From NCBI GenBank assembly GCA_016841625.1, contig JAENYU010000007.1:1-64000 (forward strand): DNA of 64,000 nt, read 5' to 3'. Shown one piece after another: positions 8,274-9,602 of this stretch (position 1 is the first letter of the stretch; every line of letters starts with the position of its first letter). Origin of the DNA: Methanobacteriota archaeon (GTDB lineage: Archaea; Halobacteriota; Methanosarcinia; Methanosarcinales; Methanosarcinaceae). The notes beneath the pieces are model-generated. The model had not been told where the DNA came from, did not search any database, and saw nothing but the letters and a program-made list of their open reading frames with translations. A program made the position numbers and the translations under genes.

Positions 8274-8980
8274 TTAGCTTATACTCCCGATTTAGCCTGT
8301 ACCCCTTCAAAGCCTGCCTGCTGGTCCCCCATGTATTATGATAGTTGCGGCAACCATTCCCTGGCGATCCCGTTTTCGCGGTATCAGCTCATCCTGCATC
8401 CCACGACCCCGATATTAATTCCCGGGCTGCCGTAACCCCACCTTATCCGGAAGAGCCGAGACCCTGCCAAAAAGCAGTTTGCCTGAATATGTAGCAAACA
8501 GATTCAAGTTTTTTTCTATATATAGTTATTCATGACCTTCAAAAGTGATGCTTGTGTAAAATATGTCCAGATATATGACTAAAAAATGCAGTTCGGATAA
8601 CTGAAAAAGATATGCTTCAGAATGATTCTGCCAGGTCAAGTGAATTTGAGCAAAGCCAGAAATCCGAAGGTTTTCGGGAAATTGTTCTGGGTAAAAGGTT
8701 TTCCATGTGTTCCGGACTGTTTTCCAGACACGGTGCCTTTCTACCTCACAAATATAACTAATTATATATGTAACTGGAAACAATTTAATTTTCCTTATCA
8801 GATCAGTGACTTGTAAATTTTGAATGCGCTTTATCACATCAAGGAAAAAGAAAAATCAATTCCACTTATCTTTTATACCTTATAGATAAAATATTAAATG
8901 CAGTTTTAAATGCTATTATTGAAGGGGTTCATGAGAGCATTTAGCTGAAAACAGCAGAATAAGAGCAGAACAAGGGAATA
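8274..8980. other. Gene-free spacer
   Basis: AT-rich from 8500 on. A 103-codon frame on the minus strand (8526-8837) has no family signature or ribosome site and is not accepted. Nothing else convincing before the RNA candidate. Confidence 0.4.
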
Positions 8981-9206
8981 TTGAGGTTCGCCATTCCTCA
9001 AACCCTTACCTCCATAGGCGATTAAGTCCCTGATGAGGGGCTGGCAAGGTGTGCCATTCCTTGCCCTCCGAGACCAGATGGACTAAATGCGGAAACCATG
9101 GAAAATAAGGTACGCCATTACCTTACTCTCCGATCCGAAAATCGTCTAAACCCGTGGTAGAAGTGAGAACAACCCTCTCTCAGACTTTTTTAAATCTCAC
9201 TTCTAC
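8981..9206 (+). ncRNA. Candidate structured RNA with three repeated hairpin modules
   Basis: Three modules of 61-63 nt follow each other. Each begins with a perfect hairpin whose stem closes with GG/CC around a loop containing GCCATT (GCCATT at 8990, 9053 and 9114). The stems differ in sequence but keep pairing: TTGAGG/CCTCAA, GGCAAGG/CCTTGCC, TAAGGT/ACCTTA. Each hairpin is followed by CTCC(G/A) and then a GA..(C/T)TAA(A/G) segment. The block ends in a perfect 12-bp inverted repeat (9157-9168 with 9195-9206) around a loop with a T run. Covarying stems with a fixed loop suggest RNA rather than coding DNA. No protein frame fits. Strand is inferred from the terminal hairpin; the family is not recognised. 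Confidence 0.45.
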
Positions 9207-9602
9207 TCCCATTCTATTCTACTCTCTACAGTCTTTACTCTACTCTGTCGCTCTTCAACCAGCCGAAATCCGAAAAATGCCTCATGTCTACCGGAATTAT
9301 TCTGAACGTAAAATGACCCTTCACCTGTTCACAGAATTAAATACTACCCAATACTATCCAAAAATTGAATAATGGGCAAAATATGAAATAGTGGTCAAAA
9401 ACAGACCTCGTCCCTAAAAACACACAACGGAACATAATAAGCCATATATAGAAGCGGTCCTTTTCCTAATAAAATATCGACCATAAAGAAAAATCTCAGT
9501 ACCGGAAAACCCCTCAGAACGGATTCTTCAATACGGATTTCTTAATACGTTTTCCCGTTTTTCACATCCATATCAGGGGAACGGAAGAAAAAAGGATTTC
9601 CC
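9207..9602. other. AT-rich spacer before ncsA
   Basis: Contains a 72-codon frame (9154-9372) that overlaps the RNA candidate and shows no family signature; rejected. AT-rich stretches near 9440-9480 could hold the ncsA promoter. Confidence 0.3.

Follow-up and report, generated by a model that had tools for sequence, protein, structure and literature searches.

A candidate standalone RNA gene displaying three copies of one hairpin, conserved in Methanosarcina and one sister genus

The bacterial RNAs CsrB/CsrC and RsmX/Y/Z are single standalone RNAs in which several hairpins carry one fixed loop motif, and tandem hairpins of ~60 to 70 nt are also found in archaeal H/ACA guide RNAs, which exist with two and three hairpins and are built from units of similar size. 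To our knowledge, there are few archaeal small RNAs with known mechanisms, and those characterized in Methanosarcina, whose methanogens are genetically tractable, act by base pairing. Of the intergenic RNAs of Methanosarcina mazei, sRNA162 masks ribosome binding sites (PMC3510493), as do sRNA154 and sRNA41, according to a review (PMC5867862). The locus described here resembles each of these groups in part. It differs from the CsrB and Rsm RNAs in that its loop reads GCCAUU and not GGA, it has exactly three modules, it is archaeal, and it has no Rfam match. The three M. mazei RNAs are likewise intergenic and come from the same or a close genus, but the published accounts that we consulted describe no repeated hairpin module for them, and sRNA162 sits at the MM2441/MM2442 locus, whereas the three-hairpin RNA lies between a TctA gene and pirin/TtuA genes.

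The locus was found in a 64,000-nt stretch of archaeal DNA (the window), on the + strand, where a TATA box (TTTTATACC, 8871 to 8879; TTTTATAT at the aligned position of nearly all relatives) lies within a conserved promoter block (~8810 to 8899). With the transcription start placed ~25 nt past the TATA box and the 3′ end placed at a U-tract, the whole RNA would extend from approximately 8900 to 9192. It would include a 5′ hairpin (TTAAATGCT...AGCATTTAG, 8906 to 8944), the inner part of which, TTGAA(T)GGGGTTCATGAG, is near invariant, and a 3′ stem (GTAGAAGTGAGA/TCTCACTTCTAC, 9157 to 9206) with CCCTCTC and a six-T tract (9186 to 9191) between its arms. This stem is retained with double changes in relatives, CCCTCTC is invariant (27 of 27), and the stem and its U-tract together are probably a terminator.

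Sequence conservation has sharp edges at the same places. Within the sister genus, mean pairwise identity is ~29 to 32% at 200 to 400 nt upstream and 47% between −200 and −100, rises in the promoter to 80% (−100 to −60) and 84% (−60 to 0), reaches 92% in the 5′ hairpin, the most conserved part, stands at 75% over the modules and the 3′ stem, and falls beyond the 3′ stem to 38% and then 30%. Because the conserved block is bounded by the promoter and the U-tract, we took the TATA box and the U-tract to mark the gene limits (~8900 and ~9192), and we read this discrete unit as a + strand RNA gene of ~290 nt. Judged by sequence, the array RNA thus has its own promoter and terminator as well as an intergenic position.

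The neighboring genes are a TctA-family gene (Pfam PF01970), upstream and divergent on the opposite strand, and a TtuA-like gene downstream, together with, in most relatives, a convergent gene that we take from its sequence to encode pirin. This synteny is conserved in most relatives, and the divergent TctA gene upstream and, in most of them, the convergent pirin gene downstream make it unlikely that the RNA serves as a leader for its neighbors. In many relatives, including two loci from the window's genus (L003 and L004), the pirin gene stands between the RNA and the TtuA-like gene; no pirin gene was found in the window (9210 to 9600; compare L003, L004, and L036).

Between the 5′ hairpin and the 3′ stem lie three modules, each an outer stem enclosing an apical hairpin. 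Module 1 (8971 to 9008) holds the hairpin TTGAGG-TTCGCCATT-CCTCAA (8981 to 9001; arms 8981 to 8986 and 8996 to 9001), module 2 (9025 to 9086) has a long covarying outer stem around GGCAAGG-TGTGCCATT-CCTTGCC (9043 to 9065; arms 9043 to 9049 and 9059 to 9065), and module 3 (9090 to 9140) encloses TAAGGTA-CGCCAT-TACCTTA (9106 to 9125; arms 9106 to 9112 and 9119 to 9125), with perfect pairing of the two arms in all three. GCCATT starts at 8990, 9053, and 9114, at spacings of 63 and 61 nt. The original prediction, made from the letters of the window, of three perfectly paired hairpins at 61- to 63-nt intervals with GCCATT loops is thus confirmed at 8981 to 9125, although the interval it had marked, 8981 to 9155, contains the hairpins but covers only the middle of a larger RNA gene. 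It had also described CTCC(G/A) and a GA..(C/T)TAA(A/G) segment after each hairpin, which holds largely within the window's genus but is not kept across wider relatives. The window itself carries ~10 extra bases, an AGCAGAA repeat, between the 5′ hairpin and module 1 (8950 to 8972), and its closest relatives are without them.

The apical hairpin is a signature of this locus. In the 3.76-Mb genome to which the window belongs, zero-mismatch matches to the apical-hairpin consensus, RAGGTNYGCCATTCCTY, occurred only in the array. The pattern GAGGN{2,7}GCCATTCCTC was run against 31 related genomes and gave two or three matches per positive genome, essentially at the array locus only, versus zero or one match per genome for its reversed control, showing that the three-hairpin motif is not a product of chance. 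Neither in the window's own genome nor in the 31 related ones did we find the apical hairpin in other mRNAs, or elsewhere, beyond chance.

A DNA search found one locus per genome in all four genomes (four species) of the window's genus, and a search with a sister-genus query found one locus per genome in 25 of the 31 genomes of the sister genus, the named public records of whose loci are Methanosarcina. The sister-genus genomes that gave no match are for the most part incomplete assemblies, but one of them (G085) is 99% complete. In the 186 genomes of the remainder of the order, a covariance model built from the 5′ hairpin together with module 1 gave no convincing match; the sole match outside the two genera, a weak one in G012, was rejected because the array is absent there. 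By these searches, the RNA is specific to Methanosarcina and one sister genus, and the absence of stem conservation in relatives, which the original prediction had named, together with the lack of a transcript, as grounds for giving it up, is the opposite of what we found in the two genera. Nor does the number of modules vary, a point it had proposed for checking between strains: each of the 28 copies in the alignment has exactly three. A 29th copy (G098, L115) is disrupted by an insertion, and its 5′ end is partly missing. Here ~100 bp, with inverted TAGTGTCG/CGACACTA on either side, stand between modules 1 and 2 (L115:1401-1520), and the insert looks like a small mobile insertion. With the array interrupted and the 5′ part of the RNA damaged, this copy is probably dead.

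Across the 28 aligned copies, all 84 modules have GCCAT and 79 of the 84 have GCCATT, so that, as in the CsrB-type RNAs, several hairpins share a conserved loop motif; GGA, the CsrA site, is not what these loops contain, as they read UUCGCCAUU, UUUUUUGCCAUU, and the like. The apical stem is nearly fixed in both of its arms, as is the loop, while the outer stems of modules 2 and 3 covary. We refolded outer stems in which the left arm of one species was combined with the right arm of another, and found that cognate arms of module 2 folded at −24.3 kcal/mol versus −18.4 kcal/mol for mixed arms (P ≈ 1e−4, by a permutation that ignores relatedness) and that those of module 3 did so at −19.6 versus −17.9 kcal/mol, a modest effect (P ≈ 1e−3, relatedness again not being modeled). 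The outer stem of module 1 did not pass this test (P = 0.27). Within the sister genus, RNAalifold counted doubly substituted pairs in every module (two in module 1, nine in module 2, and four in module 3), and the covarying stems include G-U pairs. The proposal that compensatory differences between the modules mark a selected RNA structure is thereby supported across species, in the outer stems of modules 2 and 3. Single-sequence minimum free energy z-scores averaged ~−3 on both strands, and consensus folding of both strands did not separate them; since the structural scores are not strand specific, we assigned the RNA to the + strand from its promoter and terminator. One tertiary contact was considered and rejected: a kissing pair between the 5′ loop GAAUGG and the CCAUUC loops is broken without compensation in lineages with GAACGGGG, GAAUAGGG, or GAAGGGG.

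The reading that we favor, with confidence that stops somewhat short of even, is that this is a standalone small RNA that displays three copies of one hairpin to an RNA-binding protein, titrating or scaffolding it. The RNA would be made from its own promoter, capped by the 5′ hairpin, and ended at the U-tract terminator. Its three outer stems, whose sequence is free to vary with compensation, would hold out the apical hairpin GAGG-NNN-GCCAUU-CCUC in three copies, and these would serve as repeated docking sites for one protein, which would be titrated or scaffolded by the RNA as with bacterial CsrB/RsmZ, to which it is unrelated in sequence. A fixed apical stem and loop on free outer stems is the pattern expected if the partner reads both stem and loop. 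We favor protein display because there are three fixed modules in a sharp-edged block, because the hairpin occurs inside only one RNA, and because no long antisense target turned up in the genomes searched; what counts against it is that no other mRNA carries the apical hairpin, and hence regulated targets are not visible, that the structural scores are alike on the two strands, and that the arm-mixing test fails for module 1 and gives a modest effect for module 3. The titrating sponge of the original prediction accordingly goes further than our data, in which the module number is constant and mRNA-borne copies of the hairpin were not found, and titration stands as the leading candidate mechanism. 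The comparative data support the gene unit, its structure, the three-fold repetition, its conservation, and its independence from the neighboring genes; transcription, the transcript ends, protein binding, and titration are what we infer. It is conceivable, if rather unlikely, that this would be the first archaeal protein-titrating (CsrB-like) regulatory RNA, setting the activity of its bound protein across Methanosarcina, and the conserved three-hairpin RNA offers a direct handle on whether archaea titrate regulatory proteins by RNA.

The main rival, which we regard as a real possibility, is a trans-acting antisense small RNA that masks the ribosome binding sites of several mRNAs, its GCCAUU loops pairing with AAUGGC at start codons (AUG plus an alanine codon) and its CU-rich segments (CUCC and CCCUCUC) pairing with Shine-Dalgarno sequences. 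It holds this place because the loops contain GCCAU, the reverse complement of AUGGC, and because the characterized M. mazei RNAs sRNA162, sRNA154, and sRNA41 work by such masking. Furthermore, CAU and CUCC in two of the window's modules (2 and 3) are ordered and spaced (8 to 9 nt apart) like a start codon and a Shine-Dalgarno sequence in antisense, but CUCC is not maintained among relatives. Few sites other than the array itself are exact 12-mer complements, and the one that recurs falls within repeated coding sequence resembling a transposase: with the complement AGGAATGGCRAA, the 36 matches in five genomes were the array itself, this transposase-like sequence, and isolated sites. The sole plausible match at a start codon belongs to a gene that is presumably DUF427-like and that is missing from 30 of the 31 sister-genus genomes, so that the exact 12-mer search of the five genomes yielded no convincing conserved antisense target at mRNA start regions; pairing through 6-nt seeds would escape a search of this kind. 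Nor would a seed confined to the loop account for the fixed sequence of the two apical-stem arms.

We consider it improbable that the locus encodes a known kind of structural RNA, such as a housekeeping RNA or an archaeal modification guide of the H/ACA or C/D type, although the two- and three-hairpin H/ACA RNAs have units of similar size and an ACA follows module 1 in some relatives. An H/ACA guide is unlikely, since ACA is missing behind modules 2 and 3 and is present behind module 1 in only some species; no k-turn or k-loop was evident in the alignment by eye. There are no conserved C/D boxes either, UGAUGA at 9031 to 9036 being present only in the window's genus. The window gave no match to Rfam at the gathering score, and a permissive search (E up to 5) of 8850 to 9260 gave chance matches only, which bears out the original remark that the family was not a recognized one.

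Very little speaks for a functional minus strand, on which the window does contain three micro-ORFs with a Shine-Dalgarno sequence and an ATG-GC start (GGAG...ATGGC.., with a stop after 11 to 17 codons; MAYLIFHGFRI, MAHLASPSSGT, and MANLNIPLFCSYSAVFS): we rejected them because the U-run of the module 2 loop varies by single bases in relatives (four, five, or six T), breaking the frame, and, in addition, the stop codons are not kept, the conserved promoter is on the + side, and the sequence past the 3′ stem is not conserved. Equally improbable is a DNA element (a mobile or tandem repeat or an attachment or replication site), which the repeated palindromes might suggest but which is at odds with a single conserved locus of fixed copy number, a conserved promoter and terminator, asymmetric and fixed loops, and covarying stems with G-U pairs.

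With 28 aligned members and covarying stems, the RNA is a good candidate for a new Rfam family. The literature accessible to us yielded no description of this RNA, which may be among the unnamed candidates of the 2009 M. mazei small RNA catalogue. In one genome (G001), tandem repeats of ~40 to 47 bp (ACTGGATTGAAGATTGTAGAAGAGT...) lie just past the 3′ end of the RNA gene (L004:1381-1505).
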